IMG/VR virus record: IMGVR_UViG_3300032006_000035
Span: 1 to 35,150 of that record
Reading direction: 5' to 3' (one strand)
Length of the DNA: 35,150 nt
Source of the DNA: a virus
Of the stretch, positions 6,412-28,251 are shown one piece after another. The notes under the pieces were generated by a model that was given only the letters and a program-made list of their open reading frames with translations, had not been told where the DNA came from and did not search any database. The translations under genes were made by a program, and so were the position numbers. Position 1 is the stretch's first letter, and each line of letters begins with the position of its first letter.

Positions 6412-7855
6412 AAACTCCTTTGCTTAAACTCAAATTCATATTGATTTCACAAGGATACCCAAGCTCTTCGTATCGAGACTTGTGTACGATCAGCCGCGCA
6501 TTAGTATTCCGCAGTCCGTAATCGTCTATGAACTGATCCCTGTGAATACTCAAAACCTGATCGGCCTTGTTCGCCCAGTGCTGGCTACCGGCGATGCTGC
6601 TATAAGTAATGGGCTCACGCACACCAGCGCCGATAGGCTTTGCTGGGTGCGCCAGAATCTGGAGATGCAAATTGCAGGCTTTAGCGAGATAAGTACATTG
6701 ATCCAAGCACTCGCCAATCCAGCCGGTTTCGGTTTGCTGGTTTTTGTTGAACGTCGGCACCAGCATATTCCACGGATCGATAGACGCTGCGCTGACTCCA
6801 TGCCGGACGTATGCGAGATTGATCATTTCGCATAGCCAATCAAACGTGGGGGAATTTCTTGGATGGTGGATGAATAGAAAGTGATCTTCGATCCAGTCGT
6901 CAGCCTCTTTTTGTTCGGCGTCCGACATTTCATTTTCAAGTTTGCTCCAGTAGGCGCTCCTCAAATTGCGCCGCACAAACGGCTTCTCCCTTGTCTCCAT
7001 GCTCATCAGGGCAACACGGATATCGTAGCGTCGGACGATCTGCGCCCATAGCTGCTGGGACAGATGGCTTTTGCCATGCCCCGGCCACCCGCTCATAATG
7101 CTCAAATGGCTGGGAGAAAGTTTTAATTTTCCTTCCCATTCCGGCCAGCCCTGCCATAGCGTCAACGCTGGCGGCTCTGGTATCTCAGATAATCGGTAGA
7201 TTCCTTCGACAGGATAGGGTTGGACGCCTTCACGCAGATACATGGACAGGCTTTCGGCACCCCATGTTACCAGCGCATCGTTGGCATCCTTGACATTATC
7301 AGGCCACTCAATCCAGAAACAATTAGCTGCGCCCAACAGATAGGCCAAGTCAGCGCGAAGATTTCTGCCGGGGCTGTCGCTGTCCGTGGCAATAATTATG
7401 CGCTTGCAGTCGCCTAGCCCTGCTGCGCGAGCTTGCGCGACATATTCATATCGCTTCGCCTCGTCTGGATTTTCAGTTGCATTGGCTGGCGCACCGCCCA
7501 CAACGGACAAGACAGAATGCGGTGGGACACCAGCCTCGATCAGAGACAAAGCATCCATCTCGCCCTCTACGATGTACACTTCATCCAGTGGGCCAGCCAT
7601 TACCGCTGCCTGATTGTAGAATTGCTGGGTTCCACCCGGTGACTGCCGGAACGTCTTATCGTTTAGGCTGCGAGCTTTCCAGTTAACAATCTCGTCGCCG
7701 TTATCCAGATAATTAAATATTATTGAAAGTTTATTTGAATCACCAAACGATATGATTTCGCCGCCAACTTTCATTTCCCGCAGTGTTTCTGGGCTTATTT
7801 TTCGTCGTAGCGCCCACTGGATTACTTCCTGATCTAGCCTCATCAAAACCCCCAC
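6374..7855 (-). CDS. Primase-helicase (T7 gp4-like), TOPRIM and DnaB-type domains
   Basis: In this 493-residue protein, residues 90-200 hold the TOPRIM primase core (VEGEMDALS at 97-105 and ATDSDSPG at 156-163). Residues 245-480 hold the ring-helicase domain (Walker A GWPGHGKS at 256-263, MSMETRE, IDPWN, and a later SIAGSQHWANKADQVLSI). The enzyme primes and unwinds DNA at the fork. Its N-terminal zinc-binding domain is missing from this frame and lies in the overlapping gene 7740-8030, one base out of register. The listed start is a GTG without a clear ribosome site. An ATG at 7843 (residue 5) behind GGGGG is an alternative. Confidence 0.88.
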   Translation of the reverse strand: MGVLMRLDQEVIQWALRRKISPETLREMKVGGEIISFGDSNKLSIIFNYLDNGDEIVNWKARSLNDKTFRQSPGGTQQFYNQAAVMAGPLDEVYIVEGEMDALSLIEAGVPPHSVLSVVGGAPANATENPDEAKRYEYVAQARAAGLGDCKRIIIATDSDSPGRNLRADLAYLLGAANCFWIEWPDNVKDANDALVTWGAESLSMYLREGVQPYPVEGIYRLSEIPEPPALTLWQGWPEWEGKLKLSPSHLSIMSGWPGHGKSHLSQQLWAQIVRRYDIRVALMSMETREKPFVRRNLRSAYWSKLENEMSDAEQKEADDWIEDHFLFIHHPRNSPTFDWLCEMINLAYVRHGVSAASIDPWNMLVPTFNKNQQTETGWIGECLDQCTYLAKACNLHLQILAHPAKPIGAGVREPITYSSIAGSQHWANKADQVLSIHRDQFIDDYGLRNTNARLIVHKSRYEELGYPCEINMNLSLSKGVFECSDYKQAWQS

Positions 7856-8030
7856 GCCATTCGCAATGATGGCAGAACCACATTACCTCGCTGCCCTTTC
7901 TCGTGATGGACAGGCTGCGATCCGCTTTGTTTTTCCGCTGATCGGAGCAACGGGGGCAGCGGTACTTACGCGAACCGTCCGCCCCCGCCACCAGCCCTCC
8001 GATCTCAGCGTTATCCTGCTGCCAGCCCAT
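7740..8030 (-). CDS. Zinc-binding domain of the primase, in a separate frame
   Basis: This 96-residue frame has CPRC (C25, C28) and CHHC (C53, C56) around DRSLSITRKGSEVMWF, the zinc domain that begins T7 gp4-like primases. It ends with WRGGF exactly where the primase frame becomes usable. Skipping one base in the run of five G (7849-7853) would give a single gp4-like protein (CEWRGVLMRLDQ). The last 35 residues therefore look like out-of-frame coding. It is either a separate trans-acting zinc protein, a frameshifted fusion, or the result of a one-base error. A TTG at 8075 with GGGAGG before it is an alternative start. Confidence 0.65.
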   Translation of the reverse strand: MGWQQDNAEIGGLVAGADGSRKYRCPRCSDQRKNKADRSLSITRKGSEVMWFCHHCEWRGGFDEARSGSNPVGATTKNKPRNTAGNESWRRNHIVW

Positions 8031-8208
8031 AACGTGCGAACCGTTTACCGTTCCTGTGCTGAAATTCAGTCTCAATATCCAAACCCTCCCGCCTCAGATC
8101 GTCAATACGCGCAGCAAGGCGAAAGCAATTAAATTTTTCAAGAGCCTCAATTGCTGTGACTGTGTTGCCAGCCTCAAGATACTCCCTGATTTTTGTTCGA
8201 TGGCTCAT
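8011..8208 (-). CDS. HTH_39-type helix-turn-helix protein
   Basis: This 65-residue protein is almost entirely a helix-turn-helix domain of the HTH_39 type. It reads GNTVTAIEALEKFNCFRLAARIDDLRREGLDIETEF.HRNGKRFARYGL, where ALEKF..FRLAARI is the DNA-recognition part. Such proteins occur as small regulators in phage early operons. The start directly follows the upstream stop, with GGAGGG in front (about 8217-8222). It probably acts on phage promoters; the target site is unknown. Confidence 0.75.
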   Translation of the reverse strand: MSHRTKIREYLEAGNTVTAIEALEKFNCFRLAARIDDLRREGLDIETEFQHRNGKRFARYGLAAG

Positions 8209-8457
8209 TTACTCACCCTCCTCTTTTAGTTTGTAACCTCCAGCCGCCAAGCAATCCGTTAAAAATATCATGCCGATTCTGCCTAAATTCGGCAGCCTTC
8301 GTAATTCGGATTCTTTCCATTGCAGCAACTCATCAAGGGAGTCTATGCCAGCATTGAGCAAACAGTTTACGACGCGAGTGTGCATCGACATGCCAAATAT
8401 CGCATATTCAGTGAAATCTGGATTTGTGGGCCAAGGCCGTTTATAGTTTTTCTTCAT
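8209..8457 (-). CDS. RNA polymerase alpha C-terminal-domain-like protein
   Basis: This is an 82-residue protein. Residues 24-76 (MHTRVVNCLLNAGIDSLDEL, then ESELRRLPNLGRIG, LAAGGYKL) follow the helix-hairpin-helix fold of the bacterial RpoA C-terminal domain, including the invariant-looking R..NCL and PNLG. Arg28, Asn31, Cys32 and Gly59 align with R265, N268, C269 and G296 of E. coli alpha, which contact UP-element DNA. Lys298 and Ser299 are not kept. There is no N-terminal domain for assembly into polymerase. It may bind promoter DNA or factors that normally touch alpha (inference). Confidence 0.65.
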   Translation of the reverse strand: MKKNYKRPWPTNPDFTEYAIFGMSMHTRVVNCLLNAGIDSLDELLQWKESELRRLPNLGRIGMIFLTDCLAAGGYKLKEEGE

Positions 8458-8466
8458 TTCAACCTC

Positions 8467-8991
8467 CTAGATTGGTGATATTGCAACGTCCACCTGTTCC
8501 CACGCTCTCCAGCGATCCGTGAAGCGATCAACGCCCGACGTAACCTCGAAAACGTCAATGCTCAGTTTCGCCGCTTCGGCGTAGGTTTTGTAGCTACAGA
8601 TTTCTACGATCTGTTTGTCGTCAAGTATCGCCATGTTTTCGCCGCATATCCCATCCAGCGCAGCTTTCACGACGTTATCCAAATCAGGTTTGATGGCATG
8701 AAACCCGCCACCTGCAAATAATTCTGCTCGTTTCTTTTTGCTGAGACTGCGCGGCGGCTCAAAGAATACGCCTATATGAACAATGCAGGGCAATGCCGTA
8801 GGCTTCCGCCCCGCCATGAGAATCATTGTGGCGTTGCGGATGCGCCCTTCATAATCTCGCGTCTTCTGTGGCGTATAGACATGCCCAGCCCGTGTGACGC
8901 GGGGCCTGCCCTTTGCAACAGGCACCCCCGGCACATCCAGACTGAAAAATGGCAAGTCAGCCAACACGCTCTCCCGCCACGATCTTGTCAT
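8467..8991 (-). CDS. rusA: RusA-like Holliday-junction resolvase
   Basis: This 174-residue protein from the ATG at 8991 shows the RusA pattern: VPGVPVAKGRPRVTRAG at 20-36, then KPDLDNVVKAALDGI at 101-115 and AILDDKQIVE at 121-130. Asp103, Asp105 and Asp124 or Asp125 are the metal-binding acidic residues. It resolves branched DNA before packaging. The start lies 35 bp inside the upstream gene. A GTG at 9030 is possible, but it adds residues not seen in the family. Confidence 0.85.
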   Translation of the reverse strand: MTRSWRESVLADLPFFSLDVPGVPVAKGRPRVTRAGHVYTPQKTRDYEGRIRNATMILMAGRKPTALPCIVHIGVFFEPPRSLSKKKRAELFAGGGFHAIKPDLDNVVKAALDGICGENMAILDDKQIVEICSYKTYAEAAKLSIDVFEVTSGVDRFTDRWRAWEQVDVAISPI

Positions 8992-9409
8992 GGCAATCCA
9001 ACCATCGTTGCACATCGGCCTCGCTGCCACCTACGGCGACTACAGCCTTGATGATAGCTTGAGCTTGAATGCTGCGCTCCCTGTTCCCCTGCGGGGCGCT
9101 GGCAACGGCCATTGGCGTTGTCTGTGGATGATTGCCCATATTGCGAGCTACAGGCGCTGGTGGGGGCGCTATGGGGGCCTCAGAGCCATTCCCGTGAGAA
9201 ACTTCCTTGACGATGCCCTTGCCGACGTACCGTTCTGAGGCACCGTTATATTCCTTATCGTAGAAAGCAAATTCGTAGGTGTTCCCCTCGAAGAACTTAC
9301 CAGCATGTTCGTCCCAGCATTTAATCACTCCGTTGTTTGTGTGCAGAGTGTGCGGGCCTTTTCCATTTGGCCGCTGGATATTCGTAATCGTCGCCTGCAT
9401 AACCGCCAT
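8957..9409 (-). CDS. OB-fold-like replication/recombination protein, candidate SSB
   Basis: This 150-residue protein has a beta-rich N-terminal part (MQATITNIQRPNGKGPHTLH, GVIKCWDE, GNTYEFAFYDKEY, YVGKGIVKEV) suggestive of an OB fold. A Pro-rich linker (APIAPPPAP, about 79-87) and a helical C-terminal segment (about 112-145) follow. No ordinary SSB gene was seen elsewhere, and this gene sits between RusA and a RecB-like exonuclease, so a single-strand-binding role is reasonable but inferred. It lacks the acidic DDxPF-type tail of bacterial SSB. Confidence 0.5.
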   Translation of the reverse strand: MAVMQATITNIQRPNGKGPHTLHTNNGVIKCWDEHAGKFFEGNTYEFAFYDKEYNGASERYVGKGIVKEVSHGNGSEAPIAPPPAPVARNMGNHPQTTPMAVASAPQGNRERSIQAQAIIKAVVAVGGSEADVQRWLDCHDKIVAGERVG

Positions 9410-9445
9410 TTAATTCTCTCCGTTCTCTGGTTGGTAATTAAGGGT

Positions 9446-9484
9446 GGGGAGGGGCGTCACCAAGCTCATAGACGCCACCTCCCC
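9446..9484. other. Strong GC-rich intergenic hairpin
   Basis: GGGGAGGGGCGTC (9446-9458) pairs with GACGCCACCTCCCC (9471-9484) except for one bulged base, around a 12-base loop. It lies between the exonuclease stop and the OB-fold-like gene. No U run follows on either strand, so it is not a standard terminator. It may slow RNA decay or processing. Confidence 0.6.
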
Positions 9485-9525
9485 TGCGCGACAGCGGAGG
9501 CTAAAACGCTGCCGCGCATAGGCCA

Positions 9526-10275
9526 TCAAAACGTCTCCGCTCGTGGCTCATAGCGAGCCAGTAGCAACGCTGCCTCAAACGCTGCCAGATTTTCCTCGTG
9601 ATGCTTAAATGTCACAGGATCAACCTGCCCCGTTTTGCGGCTGAACCGCACCAAGGTACAACCATCTATCCTGTCGCCAGCTTCCTGCAACATGGAGCGA
9701 TACGCTGTAAGCTGGGCCACGTGGCCGTGCTTGAGGCTGGCAGATAAATCCGTCACGCCCTTCCAATCCACGACATGAATTTCGTCGTTGTACATCTGCG
9801 CCACCATGTCGCACGTTCCGGCGATTTTCCATTTCTCTGAGTACAGACGGCGCTCAACATCTATGACGCGCTTGACGTTCCGATCAAACCAATCGCCCAG
9901 CTTGATCTGACATTTCCTCACGTCATAGTCGTCAGATGCTTCTGGCTCTAATCCCTGCGCCTTTGCCTCAACGTAAGCGTGAACCGCTGTGCCGATGGCG
10001 CCAGCTTCTGTCGTCGCCCGGTGTGGCGCTTTGCAGACGTTCTTGGCCCAGTCGATTTTCGCCGCTGTCCCATCGAATGCTGACGGGATGTCTACGCTGA
10101 TTAGCTCCTCACGAATCATCTTAGCGGCCCATCCCGAAGCTGCTCCGAAATTAAGCGGGAACGAACTCGCCACCCCACTGACGCTCAAGTCAACGCGCTC
10201 TCCGTTCCATGTGTAGCGATGGTTGCCCGCCGTATAAGTTAGCGTGCCGCCTAGCGTCTTGATAATCTCTGCCAT
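9526..10275 (-). CDS. PD-(D/E)XK exonuclease (RecB/Cas4-like)
   Basis: This 249-residue protein shows GTAVHAYVEA (His99), AGTCDMVAQ (Asp156), HVVDWKG (Asp170 and Lys172) and HVAQLTAYRSML (Gln188 and Tyr192). This is the full motif set of RecB-type PD-(D/E)XK nucleases. It probably degrades or resects DNA for recombination together with the OB-fold-like protein and RusA. Its leader carries a hairpin (10290-10310) followed by GGAGGCTAAAT directly before the ATG. Confidence 0.82.
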   Translation of the reverse strand: MAEIIKTLGGTLTYTAGNHRYTWNGERVDLSVSGVASSFPLNFGAASGWAAKMIREELISVDIPSAFDGTAAKIDWAKNVCKAPHRATTEAGAIGTAVHAYVEAKAQGLEPEASDDYDVRKCQIKLGDWFDRNVKRVIDVERRLYSEKWKIAGTCDMVAQMYNDEIHVVDWKGVTDLSASLKHGHVAQLTAYRSMLQEAGDRIDGCTLVRFSRKTGQVDPVTFKHHEENLAAFEAALLLARYEPRAETF

Positions 10276-10289
10276 ATTTAGCCTCCGGT

Positions 10290-10310
10290 GGGAGGGGCCG
10301 AACCCCTCCC
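10290..10310. other. GC-rich hairpin in front of the exonuclease gene
   Basis: GGGAGGGG and CCCCTCCC form a perfect 8-bp stem with a CCGAA loop. It stands right after the stop of the upstream gene and just upstream of the GGAGGCTAA ribosome site. No U run follows. Confidence 0.6.
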
Positions 10311-10318
10311 GGTTAAAT

Positions 10319-10594
10319 TTAGACGCAGATGTAATTGCTGACGGAAGGCTCTTCCTTCTTTAGGCCACCCAGCGAGCGCCATTCTGATGTGGCAGGTTCG
10401 AGAAGTGTGAAAACTGGTGTGTACCGCCCGCGACTGTTCTGAACGATGGCGAACTTGTACCGTTCGAAGGTGCTGGCTTCTGCTACCAGTTCCTCCTTGG
10501 TTTCAAAGGAAGGAGCCTTCTCGATGTCCCCTACCTTACGGGTGGTGTCCAGCATCTGAAGGTAGTCGGTGAAAAGCGTTGCTTTGTTATCCAT
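10319..10594 (-). CDS. Unknown early protein behind a repeated promoter
   Basis: This 91-residue protein begins MDNKATLFTDYLQMLDTTRK and contains FERYKFAIVQNSRGRYTPVF. No recognised domain. The start at 10594 is fixed by AGAGGCTAATCAG-ATG. A TATAAT at 10629-10634 with the shared -35 element lies 35 bp upstream, so the gene heads the transcript that also carries the exonuclease and the genes beyond it. Confidence 0.65.
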   Translation of the reverse strand: MDNKATLFTDYLQMLDTTRKVGDIEKAPSFETKEELVAEASTFERYKFAIVQNSRGRYTPVFTLLEPATSEWRSLGGLKKEEPSVSNYICV

Positions 10595-10628
10595 CTGATT
10601 AGCCTCTATGTTTAATTGCGATAAAGCC

Positions 10629-10661
10629 ATTATATACATCCCGCATACAAAGTAAACACCT
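10629..10661 (-). promoter_or_regulatory. Leftward promoter, copy 1 of the GTGTTTAC family
   Basis: On the minus strand, AGGTGTTTACT (-35 TTTACT at 10651-10656), a 16-bp spacer and TATAAT (10629-10634) are followed by a leader with AATTAAACATAGAGGCTAA. The -35 box and the leader are repeated at two other places in the early block. Confidence 0.65.
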
Positions 10662-10680
10662 AATATACCCAGGGGGTGCA

Positions 10681-11100
10681 CTACGGACGATTGACGATAC
10701 CTACCCACTCTGTAATCTTATCCTTTAACCCGCGCAGATCAGACGCCTTCCGCTCGCCCTTTCTCCCCTCCCAGTACGTCTGGTAGGCCGTCACGTCCAT
10801 AGTTTCCGCGTTGCCTTCCGCGATAATCACGGCGCTGTTTTTGGTTTTCGAGAACCGCTGATACATGATCCGCTGGCCGGTTGTAACCACGCCGCCCGGA
10901 CTCTTCCACTCCAGCATCAGGAAGGCGCTATTCAATTCCACGATACCATCGACATCTCCAAACGAGATGTTCCCCGGAAAGCAGTCGCGAAACACCTCGA
11001 TCTTTGGCCGGAGCTTTTTGTTGAAGCAGCCGTTCGCTTCGCAGTCCCATCGCATAGCGCCGGGTGGGAAGTTATCGAACGTACCCGGCTTAAGTTTCAT
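10681..11100 (-). CDS. PD-(D/E)XK nuclease-like protein (second nuclease)
   Basis: This is 139 residues from the ATG at 11100. NISFGDVDGIVELNSAFLML is followed by EWKSPGG and TGQRIMYQ, giving Asp49/Asp51, Glu64, Lys66 and Gln76, the metal-binding pattern of small VRR-NUC or Hjc-like nucleases. Two C..C groups precede the catalytic part. Its start overlaps the stop of the small zinc protein upstream. It may cut branched DNA or act on host DNA. Frames extended upstream of 11100 are out-of-frame shadows. Confidence 0.65.
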   Translation of the reverse strand: MKLKPGTFDNFPPGAMRWDCEANGCFNKKLRPKIEVFRDCFPGNISFGDVDGIVELNSAFLMLEWKSPGGVVTTGQRIMYQRFSKTKNSAVIIAEGNAETMDVTAYQTYWEGRKGERKASDLRGLKDKITEWVGIVNRP

Positions 11101-11248
11101 CGTCTGCGTCCCAGTCAGTGACAGCGAGCTTGCCTTCTCCCCAGCAGTCCTCGCAGATGCGCTCCTTGAAATCGTCGGCAGCAATCTGGATTTCGTAGTA
11201 GCCCCAGCCGTCGCACTCGATGCAGGGAACCGTCCGGATGCTAGTCAT
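11090..11248 (-). CDS. 52-residue zinc-ribbon protein
   Basis: This is a short gene read from ATG 11248 to TAA 11090: 52 residues with CIEC (C9, C12) and CEDC (C32, C35) and an acidic tail (DWDADDET). The two CxxC pairs, each followed by W-G, resemble a DnaJ-type zinc ribbon. GGGGAGG stands 7 bp before the ATG, and the gene overlaps both neighbours by a few bases, as expected of a real member of the operon. It may bind RNA or DNA, or partner the nuclease gene behind it (inference). Confidence 0.7.
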   Translation of the reverse strand: MTSIRTVPCIECDGWGYYEIQIAADDFKERICEDCWGEGKLAVTDWDADDET

Positions 11249-11648
11249 CGGACTGCCTCCCCCATACGGAGTAGCACTCGCTGATGGCGTATCTCATTTT
11301 CTGGGCCACAATCTCCAGCTCGTTCGCTGATAGGCTGAACGCATCCGCCAAGGCCATCTGCATAGGCGGTGAGTTTTTTTCGAGCCCACGCTCCAGTTCC
11401 ATTTCGCGCTCTGCGCTCCAGTCCCGGAATTTTTCAAGCTCCGTGGCGATCAGCTCCAACTGACGCAGCGGCGTTGATTCGATGAAATCGAACCGCGTTA
11501 CAGGTTGGACAGAATCAGCAGGGTTAGCAGGATGAGGTAGATGCTGGCTGGCTCCATGATTATCCTCGTTGCCTTTAGTTCTTAAGTTTAGATGTTTCGC
11601 CAACGCCTCGCTGTTCATAAGGGGAATTTTTGAATCAGGTGTCTTCAT
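11241..11648 (-). CDS. Unknown helical early protein
   Basis: This 135-residue protein has a polar, low-complexity first third and a helical remainder (LRQLELIATELEKF at about 61-74, MELERGLEK, ADAFSLSANELEIVAQKMRYAI). No domain is recognised. The ribosome site is GGAGGCTGAA, close to the repeated GGAGGCTAA element. It is coupled to the 52-residue zinc protein downstream (8-bp overlap). Confidence 0.6.
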   Translation of the reverse strand: MKTPDSKIPLMNSEALAKHLNLRTKGNEDNHGASQHLPHPANPADSVQPVTRFDFIESTPLRQLELIATELEKFRDWSAEREMELERGLEKNSPPMQMALADAFSLSANELEIVAQKMRYAISECYSVWGRQSDD

Positions 11649-11668
11649 TTCAGCCTCCGTTTGTAGGG

Positions 11669-11836
11669 TTACGGCAACGCAACCCAGATTAAAATCATCA
11701 AGCTCAAGAAGAGCAGGGCGAGAATGAAATCAACTATTGGCTTGATCCGATTTTTCTGCATCCGGCCTTCCCTCCAAACGGACAGGCTCATCAGGCGCTG
11801 GAACCGCGTGCCTTCGGCTGGGTTAAACTTTTTCAT
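11669..11836 (-). CDS. 55-residue tail-anchored membrane protein
   Basis: This short gene runs from ATG 11836 to TAA 11669. It has a basic N-terminal part (MKKFNPAEGTRFQRL, WREGRMQKNRIK) and one transmembrane segment at 34-54 rich in Leu and Ile. The start is preceded by GGAGGCTAATTCA and, further up, by the hairpin at 11853-11875, exactly as other early genes are. It is possibly an inhibitor acting at the host inner membrane; nothing shows this directly. Confidence 0.65.
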   Translation of the reverse strand: MKKFNPAEGTRFQRLMSLSVWREGRMQKNRIKPIVDFILALLFLSLMILIWVALP

Positions 11837-11852
11837 TGAATTAGCCTCCAGT

Positions 11853-11875
11853 GGGAGAGGGCAAAGCCCCCTCCC
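11853..11875. other. GC-rich hairpin in front of the small membrane protein
   Basis: GGGAGAGGGC (11853-11862) pairs with GCCCCCTCCC (11866-11875) with one A-C mismatch around an AAA loop. The position is the same as for the 10290-10310 hairpin: after a stop codon and before GGAGGCTAA. No U run. Confidence 0.55.
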
Positions 11876-11883
11876 GTTTCGGT

Positions 11884-12129
11884 TTATTGAACAGCCCCGT
11901 AATTCGGAATACTCCGAGGCCAGTTGCTCCGATCCTCGTTGATCTTGTCTAAATTGTATGCGGCTGACACTGCCTCATCGTAGTCCAGATACCACTGCCA
12001 CTTGGAAGATTCCTCATCGCATCCGACGGGGATAACGATATATTCAAAGGGCTCTTCGCACCGTTTATTAGGATCAGCGCCGTTTAAACAAACTGCGGTT
12101 CCGCCCGGCCATTTTTTAATCTGTTGCAT
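11884..12129 (-). CDS. Unknown small early protein
   Basis: This 81-residue protein begins MQQIKKWPGGTAVCLNG and contains CEEPFEYIVIPVGCDEE and WYLDYDEAVSAAYNLDKIN. The three cysteines and the acidic middle do not form a motif I know. The start follows AGAGGCTAATTCAAA, the leader type found directly behind the repeated promoters, and promoter copy 2 lies 39 bp upstream (12168-12173). Confidence 0.6.
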   Translation of the reverse strand: MQQIKKWPGGTAVCLNGADPNKRCEEPFEYIVIPVGCDEESSKWQWYLDYDEAVSAAYNLDKINEDRSNWPRSIPNYGAVQ

Positions 12130-12167
12130 TTTGAATTAGCCTCTTTGTTTAATTTACCAATACGGAC

Positions 12168-12200
12168 ATACTAATACATTTTGTATATCGTGTAAACACC
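12168..12200 (-). promoter_or_regulatory. Leftward promoter, copy 2 of the GTGTTTAC family
   Basis: On the minus strand, AAGGTGTTTACA (-35 TTTACA at 12191-12196), a 17-bp spacer and TAGTAT (12168-12173) are followed by a leader with AAATTAAACAAAGAGGCTAA. It is weaker at -10 than the other two copies. Confidence 0.55.
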
Positions 12201-12228
12201 TTATATACACTTTATGTATCCGCACCAT

Positions 12229-12258
12229 CTAGGAACATCTTTTAAATCCTGTTCCTAG
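12229..12258. promoter_or_regulatory. 9-bp inverted repeat upstream of promoter copy 2
   Basis: CTAGGAACA (12229-12237) and TGTTCCTAG (12250-12258) form a perfect inverted repeat with a 12-bp spacer. It lies about 30 bp behind the -35 box. No U run follows, so an operator is as likely as an RNA hairpin. Confidence 0.45.
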
Positions 12259-12310
12259 ACAAATCCGAACCACTGGTTTGCGGGGTTTGGAACCACTGAA
12301 AGCAGGGGTA

Positions 12311-12339
12311 CGGGAGGCGGCACCGCCGCCCCCTGCCCG
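12311..12339. other. GC-rich hairpin after the DUF932 gene
   Basis: CGGGAGGCGGC pairs with GCCGCC..CCT.CCCG across a short ACC loop, directly after the stop of the DUF932 gene (minus-strand TAA at 12344-12346). It resembles the other early hairpins. It lacks a U run, but the promoter that follows would make a transcript end here sensible. Confidence 0.5.
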
Positions 12340-12343
12340 TCTG

Positions 12344-13195
12344 TTACGCCGCCAGCTGAAGGAAGGGAACGCTGCTCGTCCAGCGCGATACTTCCATCTC
12401 GCGGTTCATCATCGTAACGGCAGCAGTATCGCTTTTGGTTTCCCGCAAAGCGAAACCGTTATCGTTGGCGTGGCTACTGTAATTGGTAAAGGCGCTGTAG
12501 AGGGCGTAGACGTTTAAGCCCCGCGTCTCGGCCTCTTCCTTGAAGAGCACCACCATCTTGTCGGCCTTCCGCTCGCCGGGGATCATGGCTTCGATCACCT
12601 GCGTAGCTGTCGCGACTGAAACGGGCGTCTCTGCCCAACGCTGGAGCCGCTGCCCGTGGCCCAGAAAATCATTCTTGGATCGTTGCAGATCAGCCAGAAA
12701 GTTTTCCAGCAGGAAGTTGCTGGAATTCTTGCGCCGCACCGTATCGTACTCGCCGATGATCTGGCCATTGGTGCAGTAGCTGTCGATGGCACCATACAGG
12801 ACGGTGTTGCTGCACGAGCCATCAATCCCATGCGGGCTGATGATCCGATAGTGGACATCGGTTTTATGCAGCAGACTCTCCACCGTGAACTTGACGGCCG
12901 GCAGTGACAAATCCATGCAGGCCCAGCCACCGTGGCGAGCGACACTCCAGCGGACTTTCATTCCCGCTAAATCGTCTGGGGACAGCTCGTTAGTTATTTC
13001 GCCAAACACGCCGCGAGCAAAATCACCGTGGCTGGCGCAGGTAAAAGTATGGCCGACAACATCAATGTAATCTTCGGTGTTGCCGTTGAGGACGTATTTC
13101 TTCCTTGCGACTTTGCTCGGCTCGAACCGCACCGGGAAATCAATGGCGGCTGGCACCACCAGCTCGGTGGGAACTCTTGCGGTTGAATTATACAT
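12344..13195 (-). CDS. DUF932-family protein
   Basis: This 283-residue protein has the character of DUF932 (phage/plasmid-like) proteins. There is a middle with GSCSNTVLYGAIDSYCTNGQ (about 126-145), then KNSSNFLLENFLADLQRSKN and a helical C-terminal half with RLQRWAETPVSV.TATQVIEAMI and LNVYALYSAFTNYSSH. Members are common in phages and plasmids and lack a settled function. It is the longest unknown of the early block. Its leader has AGGAGGTTAAGAAA in front of the ATG and a hairpin at 13234-13252. Confidence 0.7.
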   Translation of the reverse strand: MYNSTARVPTELVVPAAIDFPVRFEPSKVARKKYVLNGNTEDYIDVVGHTFTCASHGDFARGVFGEITNELSPDDLAGMKVRWSVARHGGWACMDLSLPAVKFTVESLLHKTDVHYRIISPHGIDGSCSNTVLYGAIDSYCTNGQIIGEYDTVRRKNSSNFLLENFLADLQRSKNDFLGHGQRLQRWAETPVSVATATQVIEAMIPGERKADKMVVLFKEEAETRGLNVYALYSAFTNYSSHANDNGFALRETKSDTAAVTMMNREMEVSRWTSSVPFLQLAA

Positions 13196-13233
13196 TTTCT
13201 TAACCTCCTAATCCGGCAGGATCGCCGTGCATA

Positions 13234-13252
13234 CGCCGGGATAACCCCGGCG
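13234..13252. other. GC-rich hairpin in front of the DUF932 gene
   Basis: CGCCGGG (13234-13240) pairs with CCCGGCG (13246-13252) around a short loop. It lies between the stop of the first early gene and the ribosome site AGGAGGTTAA, as in the other early leaders. No U run. Confidence 0.55.
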
Positions 13253-13270
13253 CATACAGAGCCACCCTTC

Positions 13271-13657
13271 TCAGGCTACGTCGTGGTATCTGGATTGGTT
13301 CCAGTACAGGGCTGTCTCTACCGCGTCTTCTACTGCGGCCTTGTAGCTCTCGCTGGTGGGCTTGCCGTTTTTCCGTAGAGTTGGCATCTCCACCCTAATC
13401 AAGCGGAGAGGATCGATCTCGGCGTCGTAGTCGATGCGATCCCCCAGAAACGCCGCGCCCCTATCTCCTGCTAACAGGACAGAACTTTCGGCTTCTGGGA
13501 TTTCATAAACGGCTACCGTTATTTCGTTCCCTCCTAATCCTCGAAAATCCTCTGCGGCTATCACGGCGCACGTCGTAACAGCCTCTCCAATGGAGTCGGC
13601 TCGCCAGCTCGTTCCGGCCATGCCGAGGTTAATCCACGCAAGGTATTGGTTTGTCAT
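13271..13657 (-). CDS. First gene of the leftward early block, unknown
   Basis: This 128-residue protein has no recognised domain. It begins MTNQYLAWINLGMAGTSWRADSIGEA and contains VAVYEIPEAESSVLLAGDRGAAFL and a helical C-terminus (SYKAAVEDAVETALYWNQSRY). It is overall acidic. It stands directly behind promoter copy 3 with the AGAGGCTAAG leader, so it should be among the first phage proteins made and is a fair candidate for a host-takeover factor (inference). Confidence 0.6.
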   Translation of the reverse strand: MTNQYLAWINLGMAGTSWRADSIGEAVTTCAVIAAEDFRGLGGNEITVAVYEIPEAESSVLLAGDRGAAFLGDRIDYDAEIDPLRLIRVEMPTLRKNGKPTSESYKAAVEDAVETALYWNQSRYHDVA

Positions 13658-13702
13658 CTTAGCCTCTTGGTTAATTGGTTATTGCTTATTGCTTATATAA
13701 GT

Positions 13703-13745
13703 ATTCTACACATTCTACCCACTGTGTAAACACCTAGTGTATACA
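13703..13745 (-). promoter_or_regulatory. Leftward promoter, copy 3, with a palindromic site
   Basis: On the minus strand, AGGTGTTTACA (-35 TTTACA at 13725-13730), a 16-bp spacer and TAGAAT (13703-13708) make the best of the three early promoters. The -35 box is one arm of a near-perfect 21-bp palindrome (13725-13745): TGTAAACAC, CTA, GTGTATACA. The site also lies 50 bp before the rightward gene at 13796, so one protein could control both directions. Confidence 0.65.
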
Positions 13746-13795
13746 ATGTATAAATTATTTGTTAGGATGCCCGTGTAAAATAGGGAGGGTATCTG

Positions 13796-14416
13796 ATGCA
13801 GACATTTTTGCCGTTGCCCAGTTTCACGCAATCGCTGCGGTGTCTCGACAGGCAGCGGCTGGGCAAGCAGCGCGTTGAGGCGTTGCAGATTCTTAATGCG
13901 CTCGCTGGCAAGTCCAAGGGCTGGGTGAACCATCCAGCTACGAGAATGTGGCGCGGCTACGAAGCTGCGCTGTCGCTGTACAAGGATTTAGCTATTACCG
14001 AATGGATCGAGCGCGGTTACAACAATACGATGGAGCGTGACGCTGTTGCCGGGCGGCTGGTTAAGTATCCACACTGGCTGGGTGACGAGGATTTCCACGC
14101 CTCGCACCGCAGCAATCTGCTACGCAAGGCCCCGGATCATTACGGCGTGATGGGATGGATTGAGGCGGATAATCTTGAATACGTTTGGCCCACACAGGAG
14201 GACAGAATGGTTTCAGAAGTCGAAGAGTTCTTAGCGGACGTGTCAGCATTCGGAGTCCGGCACGGATGGAGTGATACCCGCATCGGGGAAGAGTATGGCA
14301 ACCGCGCCATCATCCATCGAGCGAGGAAGGGTGTGGAGGAAGGCCGGGTTCGGATACGCCGTGGGACGATGCTGCGGGTGCGCAAGTTCATGGCCCAGCA
14401 GGACGCAGCGTTGTGA
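13796..14416 (+). CDS. MSMEG_6728-like protein fused to a C-terminal HTH domain
   Basis: This 206-residue protein is in two parts. Residues 1-138 (MQTFLPLPSFTQSLRCLDRQ, RLGKQRVEALQIL, GWVNHPATRMWRGYE, SHRSNLLRK.PDHYG) match the MSMEG_6728 group related to pyrimidine-dimer excision enzymes (Pyr_excise). Residues 139-206 (GVRHGWSDTRIGEEYGNRAI, VRIRRGTMLRVRKFM) look like a small helix-turn-helix protein. An in-frame ATG at 14207 has AGGAGG 5 bp before it, so the HTH part can also be made alone. GGGAGGG precedes the first ATG. It is the first rightward gene after the divergent promoters. Confidence 0.72.
   Translation: MQTFLPLPSFTQSLRCLDRQRLGKQRVEALQILNALAGKSKGWVNHPATRMWRGYEAALSLYKDLAITEWIERGYNNTMERDAVAGRLVKYPHWLGDEDFHASHRSNLLRKAPDHYGVMGWIEADNLEYVWPTQEDRMVSEVEEFLADVSAFGVRHGWSDTRIGEEYGNRAIIHRARKGVEEGRVRIRRGTMLRVRKFMAQQDAAL
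14207..14416 (+). CDS. Possible internal start: stand-alone HTH protein
   Basis: An ATG in the same frame as the 206-residue protein is preceded by a textbook AGGAGG (14196-14201) with a 5-bp gap. It would give a 69-residue protein with RIGEEYGNRAIIHRARKG and RRGTMLRVRKFM, similar to small phage HTH proteins with the R.G...GN...I..L/R.G pattern. If made, it may act as a regulator near the early promoters. Confidence 0.5.
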   Translation: MVSEVEEFLADVSAFGVRHGWSDTRIGEEYGNRAIIHRARKGVEEGRVRIRRGTMLRVRKFMAQQDAAL

Positions 14417-14850
14417 CGTGGCGGCAGATACCGGCGGCGCTAAAGACGGACGGCCTGACGCCAGTGGAGAAGCTGGTGCTGGTGGGGCTGGTGTATTTCG
14501 CTGATCAGCATGGCCAGAACAGCTACCCATCCCAGCAGACATTGGCGGGGCTGTGCAACGTCGGCCCCAGCACGATCAAGCGAGCCATGAGGAAGCTGCG
14601 GGGTATGGAGCTGATAACGCCAACAGGCAAGGGCCGGAAAGGCACGGTGCGCTACACCATAAACCTGTCGCTGTCGGCACTGCCCCGAATCAGGGGGGTG
14701 CCAACACAGGCCCCGGTGAAGGGCCATGAGCGGCCTACAATCCATTGTAAAACACCAGTGTATAAGAAAGAGGGGAATATTGTTATTGATAGGTTCTCAG
14801 ACATAGGGCCTATGCAGGCAATGAAGAAGGCTTGGGAACGGGAAGGCTAG
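14413..14850 (+). CDS. HTH_36-type protein, possible replication initiator
   Basis: This 145-residue protein starts at a GTG that overlaps the upstream stop. Residues 15-75 (LTPVEKLVLVGLVYFAD, YPSQQTLAGLCNVGPSTIKRAMRKLRGMELI) form the winged-helix domain of the HTH_36 class found at the N-terminus of lambda O-like and plasmid initiators. The C-terminal part is short, basic and without a helicase-loader motif. It is followed by a large non-coding region rich in palindromes, which would suit an initiator next to its origin (inference). A regulator is the alternative. Confidence 0.65.
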   Translation: MTWRQIPAALKTDGLTPVEKLVLVGLVYFADQHGQNSYPSQQTLAGLCNVGPSTIKRAMRKLRGMELITPTGKGRKGTVRYTINLSLSALPRIRGVPTQAPVKGHERPTIHCKTPVYKKEGNIVIDRFSDIGPMQAMKKAWEREG

Positions 14851-15168
14851 GCAACCAGAATGCGCCGTGTCAGGCGGTAATAATGCTGGGGGTATGGTTG
14901 GGCGATACTCTACCCAGAGGCGGTTGTAGCCCCCTGTGTGCGCCAGTGAGGGGTTGAGAGGCCGGAGGGTTGTGTAGGCTGGACACGCCCGCCACCCACC
15001 CCGGCGGGCCCAAAAAGCCTTCGGTTCGCGGTTTTCCAGTTCGCGGTTCGCGTTCGGTTCACGAACCAAAACCCAAACCAGTTCGGCGGCGGGGCTGGGC
15101 CGCGCAAGCGGCTGGCGTGGGGACGCAGGCGCACAGGGGCGCGCTGTCGGGCTCCGGCCCGAGGGCAG

Positions 15169-15413: not shown

Positions 15414-15842
15414 ATGGCCGAAGAACAAAAAGGCGTTCTTAATCAACACGGCGTGGGACGCCCCGCGCACAAGCCTACTGAGACAACCCGCAAAATGGTG
15501 ACGAGCGCCATCGGTATGGGGCTGGATCAAACGGCCATCGGTGCGCTGCTGGATATAACCCCGAAGACGCTGCGTAAGTTTTACCGCCATGAATTAGACA
15601 CCGGCGCGGCCAAGGCTAATTTCAGTGTGGCGAAAAGCCTGTACGACAGAGCCAGCGGCGGCAAGGATACAGTCGCCAGCATCTTCTGGCTGAAGGCACG
15701 GGCTGGCTGGCAGGACACTACGAAAACAGTTCACGAAGGCCTGCCTGAGCAGATTACGGTATCGTTTGCCCTAGAGCCACCTAAAGTAGAACATCAAGTT
15801 ATTGATGTAACCCCCGAAAAACAAATAGAAAATGCAGACTGA
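15414..15842 (+). CDS. Terminase small subunit-like protein
   Basis: In this 142-residue protein, residues 14-60 (VGRPAHKPTETTRKMVTSAI, LDQTAIGALLDITPKTLRKFY) form a helix-turn-helix of the kind used to recognise the packaging site. The following FSVAKSLYDRASGGKDTVASIFWLKARAGWQD is characteristic of this TerS-like family. The acidic C-terminus may contact TerL. The gene lies at the head of the packaging operon next to the non-coding region. Confidence 0.72.
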   Translation: MAEEQKGVLNQHGVGRPAHKPTETTRKMVTSAIGMGLDQTAIGALLDITPKTLRKFYRHELDTGAAKANFSVAKSLYDRASGGKDTVASIFWLKARAGWQDTTKTVHEGLPEQITVSFALEPPKVEHQVIDVTPEKQIENAD

Positions 15843-17190
15843 CACCGTAGGTATTAGCAGCGTTGTACCCTATGCGCGGAACCCGCGCCGGAATGAGGCC
15901 GCTGTAGCCAAGGTAGCCGCGTCCTTGCAGGAGTTTGGGTGGCGTCAACCAATTGTGGTGGACGAGGATATGGTTGTGGTCGCTGGGCATACGCGGCTGG
16001 AAGCTGCCCGTACTCTGAATATGGAAGAGGTGCCGATACATATTGCGCGTGGCCTGACACCCGAACAGATTAAAGCCTACCGGCTGGCGGACAACCGCGT
16101 GGGGCAAGAGGCCGAATGGGACGAAGAGTTGCTACGGCTGGAGCTTGGCGAGCTTGCAGCGGCGAGCTTTGCACTTGATTTGACAGGGTTCGACACTCAG
16201 GAGTGGGAATCTATTTTATTGGATGCGGTTGGCCCGGAATCTGATACTGATGAGAAAAAAGGCAAGTTATCAGAGAAATTTTTGGTCCCCCCGTTCAGCG
16301 TCTTGAACGCCCGTGAGGGCTGGTGGCAAGCCAGAAAGAGCGCTTGGATTGGGCTGGGCATACAGAGCGAGTTGGGGCGCGGAGGAAAGGGTTATGCCGA
16401 GGCGATAGCTAACACATGGATACAGCGGGGGGGCAAAGGGGGGGAAACAGGAACCAGCGTTTTTGATCCAGTGTTGTGTGAGTTGGTTTACCGATGGTTC
16501 AGTCCGCCAGAAGGAATTGTGCTTGATCCGTTCGCAGGCGGCAGCGTGCGTGGGATTGTAGCCTCTGTTTTGGGGCGCGAATATGTGGGTTACGATTTGC
16601 GCCCGGAACAAGTTGCGGCCAATGGTGAGCAGGCGGTGTCGATATGTGATTCCCGACAGCCGCAGTGGGTAGTTGCTGACAGCCGTACTATCGACAAGTC
16701 TGATGTCGAGGCTGATTTCCTGTTTAGCTGTCCGCCGTATGCAGATTTAGAAATCTATAGCGACGACTCGCGGGATTTGTCGACGCTGCCCTATTCAGAG
16801 TTTCGGGATAGCTATCGGGAAATTATCGCCAAGTCCTGTGCAAAATTGAAGGATGATCGCTTCGCTTGCTTCGTCGTCGGTGAGGTGCGGGACAAAGCAG
16901 GGAGGTATTACAATTTCGTTGGCGATACTATCAGTGCATTTATGGATGCAGGAATGAGTTATTACAACGAAATGATTTTGGTGACAGCCGTCGGCTCGCT
17001 TCCCATTCGGGCTGGCCGATACTTTTCGGTGAGCCGTAAAATAGGGAAAACCCACCAGAACGTGTTGATTTTCGTCAAGGGTGACTTTAAGGCAGCAGTG
17101 AAAGCCGCTGGAGAAATCACAATAGACGAGGAAATGCTGGAACCCGATGGAAATACAGATACCGTACACGCCACGCCCCCAGCAGCTTGA
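15832..17190 (+). CDS. ParB-like domain fused to a DNA methyltransferase
   Basis: This is a 452-residue protein. Residues 5-130 carry a ParB/Srx-type domain (ARNPRRNEAAVAKVAASL, AGHTRLEAA at 51-59, AYRLADNRVGQ). Residues 205-430 carry an amino-methyltransferase domain with the SAM motif LDPFAGGSVRG (231-241) and the catalytic CPPY (300-303). The product would be N6-adenine or N4-cytosine methylation; the target is unknown. It overlaps TerS (11 bp) and TerL (44 bp). Fusions of this kind are known in phages. The role could be protection against host restriction or marking DNA for packaging (inference). Confidence 0.82.
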   Translation: MQTDTVGISSVVPYARNPRRNEAAVAKVAASLQEFGWRQPIVVDEDMVVVAGHTRLEAARTLNMEEVPIHIARGLTPEQIKAYRLADNRVGQEAEWDEELLRLELGELAAASFALDLTGFDTQEWESILLDAVGPESDTDEKKGKLSEKFLVPPFSVLNAREGWWQARKSAWIGLGIQSELGRGGKGYAEAIANTWIQRGGKGGETGTSVFDPVLCELVYRWFSPPEGIVLDPFAGGSVRGIVASVLGREYVGYDLRPEQVAANGEQAVSICDSRQPQWVVADSRTIDKSDVEADFLFSCPPYADLEIYSDDSRDLSTLPYSEFRDSYREIIAKSCAKLKDDRFACFVVGEVRDKAGRYYNFVGDTISAFMDAGMSYYNEMILVTAVGSLPIRAGRYFSVSRKIGKTHQNVLIFVKGDFKAAVKAAGEITIDEEMLEPDGNTDTVHATPPAA

Positions 17191-25267: not shown

Positions 25268-26728
25268 ATGCAGCGTGATTTATACGGCGAACTGCTCTCA
25301 CGGGCGCTGAACAGAGGCGCACCGCAAGGGCATTTTGCTGCATATATCACACCGCAGGAAGGCGGTGCCTTACGCGCTATGGGCGGGGGCGTCGCTCCCG
25401 GCGGGGGGCAGTATATGGCGAACGGCATTCCCAGCTTTCAGGAGATGGGCGGGGTTGATCCGGGCATAGCTGATCCAACAGGCCCGACTGGTGGCTATGG
25501 CTCCGCTGGTTTTGAGATGGGATTTACCGATCCTAGCCTTCCGGGTTATTTGGGTAATACGGGCGTGTCACAAGCAGATGTAGATGCGGCAGAGCAGGCT
25601 ATGGGGTTGGAAAACCCGCTGGGGAGAGCAGAACGTGCTGAAATGGCGCGGCAAATGGCGGCTGCTCGAATGGCCGAGGTGGATAGACGAAGCGCTCCTG
25701 TCACAGTTCAGGCTTTGCCAGCGGTGTCTCCAACGGTACAGGCCGGAATAAATGTAGCTAGAGCCGTGCAAGCTGGTATGCCACCCGCGCAGCAAGCAGT
25801 CGAAGACGATTATGGTGTGCCAACGGAATATGGCGTAACTCCATCAGGTTACAACGAGCGCGGCGATTTTGTTGGGTATGTTGACGACGCTTTCACGGGA
25901 ACTGGTGATAGGACATCTCGTAACAATCCAGCAACCGACGCCTTTGGGCGCGAGCCGGGGAATGTAGATCAATATGGATTTGTTACTGAACAGGGAGCAA
26001 GAAACGCGCAAAACAATCAAAGCGAAGGCGGTTTAGGATACATGAGCCCCGGCGCAATGAGCGTCCAAGCGGGAATGTCTTTTGCTGATTTAGCTGCTAT
26101 CAACAGCCTTAGCAGAGATGGGGGATACTCAGTTAACGCAACCAACCCAGATGCACACGATTTGGAAGTAAGTTTCCTTAACGCCCGATACAATCCCAAC
26201 TTTGCAAATGCTGTTTACGGAATTGGTGGACTTGTAAGCCCTTCATTTATGATGGGCGTAAACGCAATCAACGCCAGAAGCCCTCACGCGCAATACGAAG
26301 GTTATGAATCGCCGGGGTTCGGCAACATACTGGGGCAGGCAGCGCGGGGCATCGGGCTGGGAGGAGTTGTTGACGCCGTGGGTAATGTCCGCAGCGAAAT
26401 AGGTGAGGTACTTTCTGGCATTACTGATCCAATTACGGGCGCAATCGGAAGAGCAGGAACAGCGATAGGTGAAGAAATAAGCGGTGCGTTTTCCCCAGTA
26501 ACAGACTTTTTTGGAGATAGGCCAGCTCCTGAACAGGGGCCGAGCATTCCACAAGACGGGGGCAATCAAGAGGTATTTGTTCCACCGCAACCCGCGCCTG
26601 TGACAGAGCCGTTTGTTTCGGATGATGCGGATGATGCGGAAAGGCAGTTTGCAGAAATACCGCCGGATATTCTGGCTAGGATACTGGCGACTGAACGGTT
26701 TGGCCGACAGAGGGTAGGATTAGCATAA
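25268..26728 (+). CDS. Gly/Ala-rich virion protein, probable tail or ejection protein
   Basis: In this 486-residue protein, the first 60 residues (PQGHFAAYITPQEGGALRAM, GGGQYMANGIPSF) follow the FIAYINP.EA..L...GG pattern of uncharacterised phage virion proteins. The rest is low in complexity, rich in Gly, Ala, Pro and Asn, with helical patches (AEQAMGLENPLGRAERAEMA, about 107-126) and an amphipathic C-terminal region. It is in the tail operon between adaptor and nozzle, so a virion role is likely although no domain is known. Confidence 0.6.
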   Translation: MQRDLYGELLSRALNRGAPQGHFAAYITPQEGGALRAMGGGVAPGGGQYMANGIPSFQEMGGVDPGIADPTGPTGGYGSAGFEMGFTDPSLPGYLGNTGVSQADVDAAEQAMGLENPLGRAERAEMARQMAAARMAEVDRRSAPVTVQALPAVSPTVQAGINVARAVQAGMPPAQQAVEDDYGVPTEYGVTPSGYNERGDFVGYVDDAFTGTGDRTSRNNPATDAFGREPGNVDQYGFVTEQGARNAQNNQSEGGLGYMSPGAMSVQAGMSFADLAAINSLSRDGGYSVNATNPDAHDLEVSFLNARYNPNFANAVYGIGGLVSPSFMMGVNAINARSPHAQYEGYESPGFGNILGQAARGIGLGGVVDAVGNVRSEIGEVLSGITDPITGAIGRAGTAIGEEISGAFSPVTDFFGDRPAPEQGPSIPQDGGNQEVFVPPQPAPVTEPFVSDDADDAERQFAEIPPDILARILATERFGRQRVGLA

Positions 26729-28251
26729 TGGCTACTTCTCCACTCGCCATGACAGGACAGAGCAACGCGGTTCCCGCGCCGATTGGCGGGTTAAATACAC
26801 GCGACTCTGTTGATCTGCTGCCGGAAACAGATGCAATACGTCTCGAAAACTTCTTCCCGGCGCGTTCCCACGTTCAAGTCCGTAACGGATACGACGATCA
26901 TGTAACGGGACTGCCATCCACCGTTCAGAGCCTGATGGTTTATAACAGCGGCACCACAAGCACGATGTTCGCCGCAAGCGGTACTGCTGTTTACAACGTA
27001 ACCAGTGCCGGATCAGTCGGCTCTGCTGTTATTACCAGCCTGTCTAATGCCCAGTTCCAGTGGGTGAATATGACAACATCGGGTGGTTCGTTTCTGTTTA
27101 TCTGTAACGGGGAGGACGCTCCGCGCCACTGGAATGGTTCCGCATGGGCCACGCCAACCCTCGGCAGCATCACCGCTGCCAATGTTATCAATGTCGAAGT
27201 CTACAAGGAGCGTCTGTTCTTCGTCCTGACGGACAGCCTGACATACGGCTATCTGCCTGTTAACAGCGTGGCCGGCACAGTCGCATCTGTAAATCTGGGC
27301 AGCGTATTCAGCAAGGGCGGCAAGCTGATGGCAATCAGCACATGGACACGCGATGGCGGCTCCGGCCCTGATGACAATATCCTGTTCTATACAGATCAGG
27401 GCGAAATCGCCATGTACAGCGGCACCGATCCGTCTGACGCGACAAAGTGGAGCCTTGTCGGTGTTTACACGGTAGGGCGTCCTATCGGACGGCGGTGTAT
27501 GCTTCGCGTTGGTTCGGATTGCTATCTGGTGACAGAGAACGGCCTTCTGCCCATGACACAGGTGCTGGGCACAGGGGAGGCTGCGCCGAACCGTGCTATC
27601 AGCGACAAGATCAGCAACAGCTACAACGACTCAGTTGTAAACTTCAAGGACGTATTCGGGTGGCAGGGTGTTGTCTATCCAAAAGGTGGCTACGCAGCTA
27701 TCAATGTTCCTGACTCTACGGGCGGGGCTTTTATACAGTATGTTGTGAATCTTGATACCGGGGCGTGGGCAAAATTTACCAATCAGGATGCTTATGTCTG
27801 GGCAGTATTTAACAGCGATTTGTACTTTGGCGGAAATACCAAAGTCCACAAGGCTGACAGCGGGACGGACGATGCTGGTTCTGCGATAGAAGCAATAGCC
27901 AAGACAGCGTTTATCTATTTTGGTGGACGCAATGGCCCGAAGCGATTTACTGCTATCCGCCCTGTTATGGCGAGTGACACGGATCTGGAAGTCAGCATCG
28001 GGTTCGATACTGATTTCCGTGACGGCACAACGACATTCACCCCCAGCACAACGTCCAGCATTGCCTCGGCGTGGGATACGGCAACGTGGGATGCTGCAAC
28101 GTGGGGCGCTCCCATCACGACACAGCAGGCATGGTTCAGCGTTGCTGATATCGGATGGAACGCCGCTGTGCGTGTCCGCACCAGTACCAGTCAGCAATCC
28201 GTAAGATGGCTTGCAACCGATGTCCGCTATGAAGTGGGAATGGGCTTATGA
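26728..28251 (+). CDS. Tail nozzle-like protein (gp10/tubular B type)
   Basis: This 507-residue, beta-rich protein contains PAPIGGLNTRDSVDLLPETD and AIRLENFFPARSHVQVRNGY, a recognisable opening of podovirus nozzle and tail hub proteins. Repeated blade-like segments follow (SLMVYNSGTTSTMFAASGTA, FLFICNGEDAPRHWNG, VEVYKERLFFVLTDSL). Near the C-terminus is a WDTATWDAATWG repeat. It forms the lower tube of the short tail. Its start overlaps the last base of the previous stop. Confidence 0.78.
   Translation: MATSPLAMTGQSNAVPAPIGGLNTRDSVDLLPETDAIRLENFFPARSHVQVRNGYDDHVTGLPSTVQSLMVYNSGTTSTMFAASGTAVYNVTSAGSVGSAVITSLSNAQFQWVNMTTSGGSFLFICNGEDAPRHWNGSAWATPTLGSITAANVINVEVYKERLFFVLTDSLTYGYLPVNSVAGTVASVNLGSVFSKGGKLMAISTWTRDGGSGPDDNILFYTDQGEIAMYSGTDPSDATKWSLVGVYTVGRPIGRRCMLRVGSDCYLVTENGLLPMTQVLGTGEAAPNRAISDKISNSYNDSVVNFKDVFGWQGVVYPKGGYAAINVPDSTGGAFIQYVVNLDTGAWAKFTNQDAYVWAVFNSDLYFGGNTKVHKADSGTDDAGSAIEAIAKTAFIYFGGRNGPKRFTAIRPVMASDTDLEVSIGFDTDFRDGTTTFTPSTTSSIASAWDTATWDAATWGAPITTQQAWFSVADIGWNAAVRVRTSTSQQSVRWLATDVRYEVGMGL

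Follow-up and report, generated by a model that had tools for sequence, protein, structure and literature searches.

Putative early promoters, a group-wide start leader and a conserved intergenic RNA element in apparently exchangeable gene cassettes of an uncultured phage

In the uncultured virus record IMGVR_UViG_3300032006_000035 (35,150 bases, analysed at full length and hereafter called the window), we studied three putative leftward promoters, P1, P2, and P3, and the leaders that join them to their genes. In the sequences compared, the promoter and the leader are separate elements: the leader occurs throughout the group, but the promoter motif is confined to one lineage. Taken as a whole, the observations are probably best explained by early promoters that drive exchangeable cassettes under a common regulator, the putative DNA-binding protein hth70, with a stem-loop separating the coding units. 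We also put forward, tentatively, a broader proposal: a widespread, undescribed phage group may build its early region from exchangeable cassettes, which would share an expression frame made of two parts, the start leader, which is conserved, and an RNA element that is new and has no match in Rfam; one lineage would have gained the promoter and operator in addition. In that case, the RNA element would be a processing or regulatory signal that lets swapped-in, unrelated genes be expressed at once.

The sequence GGTGTTTAC, which the first-pass annotation had placed at the -35 position of three leftward promoters, occurs four times in the window, at 10652-10660, 12192-12200, and 13726-13734 on the minus strand and at 27460-27468 on the plus strand (shuffled sequences: mean 0.15, maximum 2). 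The plus-strand copy was rejected as a promoter, as it lies within a coding open reading frame (ORF; 26728-28251); the three leftward sites were borne out. All three promoter regions have the 10-mer AGGTGTTTAC in common (at least 9 shared in 0 of 500 shuffles), and in a block of 31 columns, 17 are identical, as compared with at most 13 after shuffling. A scan for sigma70-type promoters (hexamers with a spacing of 16-18 bp) recovered P1 as TTTACT-16-TATAAT, P2 as TTTACA-17-TAGTAT, and P3 as TTTACA-16-TAGAAT, with 9-10 of 12 hexamer matches and spacers of 16-17 bp. P1-P3 probably belong to a tailed phage and serve as early promoters of the host (sigma70-like) type, at which transcription would start.

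13703-13746, minus strand: P3, with a TTGTATAC repeat (13746-13739), a -35 region GGTGTTTACA (TTTACA, 13730-13725), and a -10 TAGAAT (13708-13703)
12168-12210, minus strand: P2, with a GTGTATAT repeat (12210-12203), a -35 region GGTGTTTACA (TTTACA, 12196-12191), and a -10 TAGTAT (12173-12168)
10629-10670, minus strand: P1, with a GGGTATAT repeat (10670-10663), a -35 region GGTGTTTACT (TTTACT, 10656-10651), and a -10 TATAAT (10634-10629)

The leader AATTAA(A)C-A-AGAGGCTAA lies directly 5' of the three start codons (ATG at 10594, 12129, and 13657 behind P1, P2, and P3, respectively), far above chance. AGAGGCTAA itself is found exactly three times in 35 kb, on the minus strand at 10599-10607, 12136-12144, and 13659-13667, each time before the gene behind one of the promoters (shuffles: mean 0.17, maximum 1). 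The near-identical leader reported earlier at these starts is thus confirmed.

13659-13702, minus strand: P3 leader, with AATTAACCAAGAGGCTAAG at its end, then ATG 13657; the leader element is group-wide
12130-12167, minus strand: P2 leader, AATTAAACAAAGAGGCTAATTCAAA, then ATG 12129
10595-10628, minus strand: P1 leader, AATTAAACATAGAGGCTAATCAG, then ATG 10594

The first-pass annotation had treated the promoter and leader as one cassette unit, and this view was not upheld. GGAGGCTAA also precedes the genes starting at 11836 and 10275, where there is no promoter; thus, the leader is independent of the promoter. In at least 10 distinct relatives, which were collected with RusA, terminase, and other queries, early genes begin with AGAGGCTAA, or with GAGGCACA in one branch, often with an A-rich stretch on the 5' side. 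Of 46 GAGGCTAA words, 28 lie just 5' of an ORF start (mean of 1.65 for permuted words), a count inflated by homologous contigs, as the relatives are not independent. By this comparison, the leader is a start-associated ribosome-binding leader of a large phage group and is not special to P1-P3. AGAGG probably serves as the Shine-Dalgarno (SD) sequence, and the A-rich part would leave the start site unstructured. In three relatives (L010 1454-1467, L074 3879, and L079 5946), two consecutive GAGGCTA-type leaders precede a single start codon where the early operon begins.

The promoter motif was surveyed in 25 related records, many of which are fragments that cover the early region in part. Among them, the TTTAC promoter sequence is limited to the window and one close lineage (L005/L006). 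P3 has a counterpart at 612-653 of L005, and the upstream half of P2 is kept in L005/L006. In the whole viral collection, the pattern GTGTTTACN{38,62}AAGAGGCTAA gave 23 stretches, with a real counterpart in the L005/L008 contig alone and the rest chance-like, and the pattern GTATATNAGGTGTTTA gave 55, of which L005/L006 alone are relevant. Most other relatives that cover the site have a single TTGAC-type (sigma70-like) promoter heading the early operon, without the P1-P3 sequence. The first-pass annotation had proposed, as its own test, to look for the motif before the same genes in close relatives; the motif is present in L005, but different genes lie behind it.

The units of P1 and P2 resemble each other at the 5' and the 3' end, although their ORFs are unrelated. 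Their 5' ends align over 75 columns with a score of 46, and their 3' ends, which consist of a GGGAGGGG hairpin and then GGAGGCTAA, align with a score of 42 (each in 0 of 1000 shuffles). The genes and borders concerned are as follows.

13271-13657, minus strand: orphan early gene behind P3 (128 aa), with a different gene in its place in L005
12344-13195, minus strand: DUF932 gene, conserved in L005 (88% identity)
11884-12129, minus strand: orphan early gene behind P2 (81 aa, g11884), missing from L005
11837-11875, minus strand: 3' end of cassette 2, a GGGAGGGGGC/GCCCTCTCCC hairpin and GGAGGCTAA, then g11669; L012 opens with the identical sequence
10319-10594, minus strand: orphan early gene behind P1 (91 aa), missing, along with P1, from L012
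10276-10314, minus strand: 3' end of cassette 1, a GGGAGGGG/CCCCTCCC hairpin and GGAGGCTAA, then the exonuclease gene

In L012, the nuclease-like and exonuclease genes that flank the P1 unit adjoin, and the sequences become homologous again from the exonuclease start codon on; like a phage moron, the P1 unit is an extra gene between genes that are adjacent in a relative. In L005, the conserved upstream part of P2 leads straight to the g11669 homolog, and P3 heads another gene. The three cargo proteins had no match in the fetched relatives or in 50,697 phage records, and a search with g11884 yielded no relatives. The resemblance of the two units at both ends and the absence or replacement of cargo in relatives support the earlier suggestion that the cassettes spread by copying. 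The simplest reading, drawn from a few genomes, is that cassettes were copied and their cargo was exchanged. Each of P1-P3 would drive a small accessory gene in an exchangeable cassette, ordered as promoter, A-rich leader with AGAGGCTAA, ORF, hairpin, and then the following gene's leader or SD.

A second kind of conserved element lies between the early genes.

13196-13275, minus strand: structured intergenic RNA, a long interrupted stem-loop in the gap between g13271 and the DUF932 gene, then AGGAGGTTAAGAAA and ATG (model match at 13197-13269)

The predicted fold of this element has an energy of -42.1 kcal/mol (z -5.0), with interrupted stems of about 22-26 bp, and a long interrupted stem-loop also lies between tandem early genes in many relatives. 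In 15 copies, 94.8% of the cells are paired, as against 77.0% after shuffling (0 of 500 shuffles) and 33-44% in slid controls, and double changes occur at 11 of the 17 pairs; the structure was derived from the alignment on which it was tested and is somewhat favoured thereby. With a covariance model, ten contigs including the window were found to hold 18 strong copies (E below 1e-7), exclusively on the early strand; L079 and L080 share one copy, and the copies at L090 3918 and L070 125 were outside the model-building set. Neither the window nor six relatives had a match in Rfam 15 at the gathering score, and a distant search of phage records gave partial, chance-level matches only. G-U occurs at some conserved pairs (in 15 of 15 and 10 of 15 copies), and these frequent G-U pairs suggest that the element acts as RNA. 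Its role is probably processing or 3'-end protection: in a polycistronic early mRNA, the stem-loop would most likely separate the coding units, with each gene keeping a clean leader. A third, divergent element type with GTTTAAAC/GTTTACAC-type loops was seen at 6676-6760 and 7782-7873 of L016 and at 397-487 of L018, with weak or no model matches.

P1, P2, P3, and two L005 promoters each carry three RTGTWTAY-like units, upstream of the -35, at the -35, and at the -10. The upstream repeat lies 11 or 13 bp from the -35, and the -10 repeat follows after 20 bp; this register was read by eye from the aligned promoters, and a partial scan confirms no more than individual sites. The GTGTATACA unit of P3 doubles as a plausible -35 of a rightward promoter, the L005 counterpart of which (TATACA-18-TATAAT) is stronger.

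13737-13790, plus strand: rightward promoter region facing away from P3, with TATACA (in GTGTATACA, 13737-13745)-17-TAGGAT, read by eye
14207-14416, plus strand: hth70 (69 aa), a putative DNA-binding protein of the lambda-repressor type and a candidate regulator

In frame with hth70, ORF 13796-14416 (plus strand) encodes a pyrimidine dimer DNA glycosylase (PF03013), and an SD sequence precedes the internal ATG at 14207; hth70 is possibly translated separately from the upstream glycosylase ORF. The glycosylase part is missing in L005, which points to gene exchange on the rightward side too. In 13 sequences (the window and 12 contigs), hth70 and the early operon point away from each other. Its product is 94-96% identical in L005 and L007 and 31-42% identical in eleven others, in which the motif was not found. 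Among the records that reach hth70, the motif accompanies only the 94-96% identical form (L006 stops short of the gene; L007 starts inside it, so that the promoter region is outside the contig). In the case of L010, RusA is as close to that of the window as L005 RusA is (90% vs 84%), yet hth70 is different and the motif is absent. The structure predicted for hth70 is a confident four-helix model (predicted local distance difference test score, pLDDT, 93.8).

Control of P1-P3 by one regulator, as first suggested, remains plausible given the three shared RTGTWTAY-like repeats and the occurrence of the motif only with the same hth70, although the two are physically linked. Such a regulator would bind the triple repeat, which overlaps the -35 and -10. 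Two small helix-turn-helix proteins had been named as candidates. The one at 14207-14416 (hth70) fits better and is probably the best candidate; acting in the manner of Cro, it would shut down early transcription as well as its own promoter. The other (8011-8208) was set aside, as it is a winged-helix protein (HTH_39) within the replication operon with homologs in motif-free contigs.

The window encodes a terminase, a portal, a primase/helicase, a RusA resolvase, an exonuclease, and a ParB-like/methyltransferase protein. The genes that run leftward from about 13.7 kb are presumed to be early from their content, and P3 stands where they diverge from a rightward set, which opens with the DNA glycosylase ORF, hth70, and a replication-initiator-like HTH_36 protein. 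A nucleotide search of phage records with 7500-15000 gave no match. Bacterial genomes scanned with the primase/helicase gave remote matches of only 26-33% identity, and thus no close prophage or host. Further genes were noted in passing. The ParB-like nuclease domain and the DNA methyltransferase are fused at 15832-17190 (plus strand), and the N-terminal part alone is kept in L007 and L009. An 82-aa protein at 8209-8457 (minus strand) matches PF03118, the C-terminal domain of the RNA polymerase alpha subunit, with a score of 36 bits that exceeds the curated cut-off; it has homologs in L010, L012, and L013 and none in L005. Among the early genes of L005, 4107-5054 (plus strand) encodes a protein whose CxxxCxxC motif (GCPVGCWFC) recalls radical SAM enzymes.

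Several observations weigh against the explanation by regulated promoters in exchangeable cassettes. Promoter-like sites in the region scanned for sigma70 promoters are no commoner than in shuffles, so that repetition alone makes P1-P3 credible; their activity is predicted from sequence, and P1 is present in one genome only. Most structural matches of hth70 are to lambda-repressor-like proteins, but all are weak (E 0.39 at best), and the protein has no Pfam match and reaches a PHROG transcriptional regulator at E 0.16 only. In L005, hth70 and the motif are linked in a single block; their co-occurrence may therefore reflect linkage and is suggestive only. The covariance model does not place the two short hairpins of the window among the copies of the RNA element. 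On the early strand, the cassette hairpins lack a T-run, which leaves termination there unsupported, and they were set aside as intrinsic terminators.

We consider it unlikely that strong host promoters with A/T-rich upstream sequences were selected independently, with neither a common regulator nor copying. The hexamers of P1-P3 are indeed near the sigma70 consensus, and the leader is group-wide whatever the promoter. However, the likeness of P1-P3 extends far past the hexamers (AGGTGTTTAC, upstream GTATAY, and ATGTRTA), cassettes 1 and 2 are alike at their 3' ends too, and the TTGAC promoters of relatives lack the P1-P3 sequence. A P1-P3 regulon under another phage protein seems equally improbable. 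The winged-helix protein (8011-8208), the HTH_36 protein (14413-14850), and the alpha C-terminal domain-like protein 8209-8457, a possible RNA polymerase-binding factor, are all encoded nearby, and HTH_36 is, like hth70, specific to the motif-bearing lineage (86% in L005, 37% in L010). Yet HTH_36 resembles replication initiators, the other two have homologs in motif-free contigs, and L005 has the motif with no homolog of 8209-8457.

The cassettes could also be morons proper, namely, independently expressed cargo that has its own promoter and terminator and is active in the prophage. We hold this to be somewhat unlikely. Their own promoters, orphan cargo, and insertion between conserved genes fit, but there is no canonical terminator on the early strand 3' of the cargo, and the leader and hairpin are early-operon features common to core genes. 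Neither an integrase nor a repressor was identified among the annotated genes, which leaves lysogeny unproven. That the intergenic stem-loops are recombination or replication signals acting as DNA is quite improbable. They do lie at cassette borders, where genes exchange; however, conserved G-U pairs fit RNA better than DNA, and the stem-loops are found only on the early sense strand, directly 5' of leaders.

Small orphan genes abound in phage early regions and are gained and lost there. The combination of a shared leader and a conserved intergenic RNA offers a testable reason for the immediate expression of newly acquired genes, and both elements are a handle for finding exchangeable genes, often for host takeover or anti-defence, in uncultured phages.

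A literature search of limited reach found nothing on repeated phage promoters with leaders or on RNase III sites in early mRNA. In T7-like early regions, intergenic hairpins are processed by RNase III. There, as here, a long interrupted stem-loop between early genes is followed by a single-stranded leader with an SD sequence; the sequence and exact shape differ, and the element described here is known from its predicted fold, whose interrupted stems of about 22-26 bp compare with the near-continuous stems of about 20 bp or more expected of RNase III-type sites. With phage morons, the cassettes share an orphan gene that has its own promoter, lies between conserved genes, and is missing in relatives. 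They differ in that they have no canonical coding-strand terminator, carry the 5' leader and 3' hairpin of the phage's early-gene style, and have one promoter design common to three cassettes.

The closest known parallel is found in cluster K mycobacteriophages, which have start-associated sequence (SAS) leaders and extended SAS (ESAS) elements (PMC3203893). SAS is a short, conserved ribosome-binding leader, and many non-structural genes carry it 3-9 bp ahead of their starts. ESAS, an upstream element in a subset of cases, has a sigma70-like -35/-10 and 17-bp inverted repeats; the arrangement occurs with non-homologous genes, and ESAS was judged unlikely to form a hairpin (PMC3203893). The presence of sigma70-like promoters in ESAS is also described in PMC11373665. 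Both systems repeat a leader at the starts of non-homologous, non-structural genes and place a promoter-containing upstream element before a subset of them. However, the leader here (AGAGGCTAA) is unrelated to their 13-bp GGGATAGGAGCCC, the repeats are short, direct-type, and RTGTWTAY-like instead of 17-bp inverted ones, the leader is spread wider than the promoter motif, and the covarying intergenic RNA hairpin is an added feature. The arrangement in this phage thus works like SAS/ESAS and yet is not a member of that system; a second, unrelated architecture of this kind suggests a general solution rather than a mycobacteriophage oddity.

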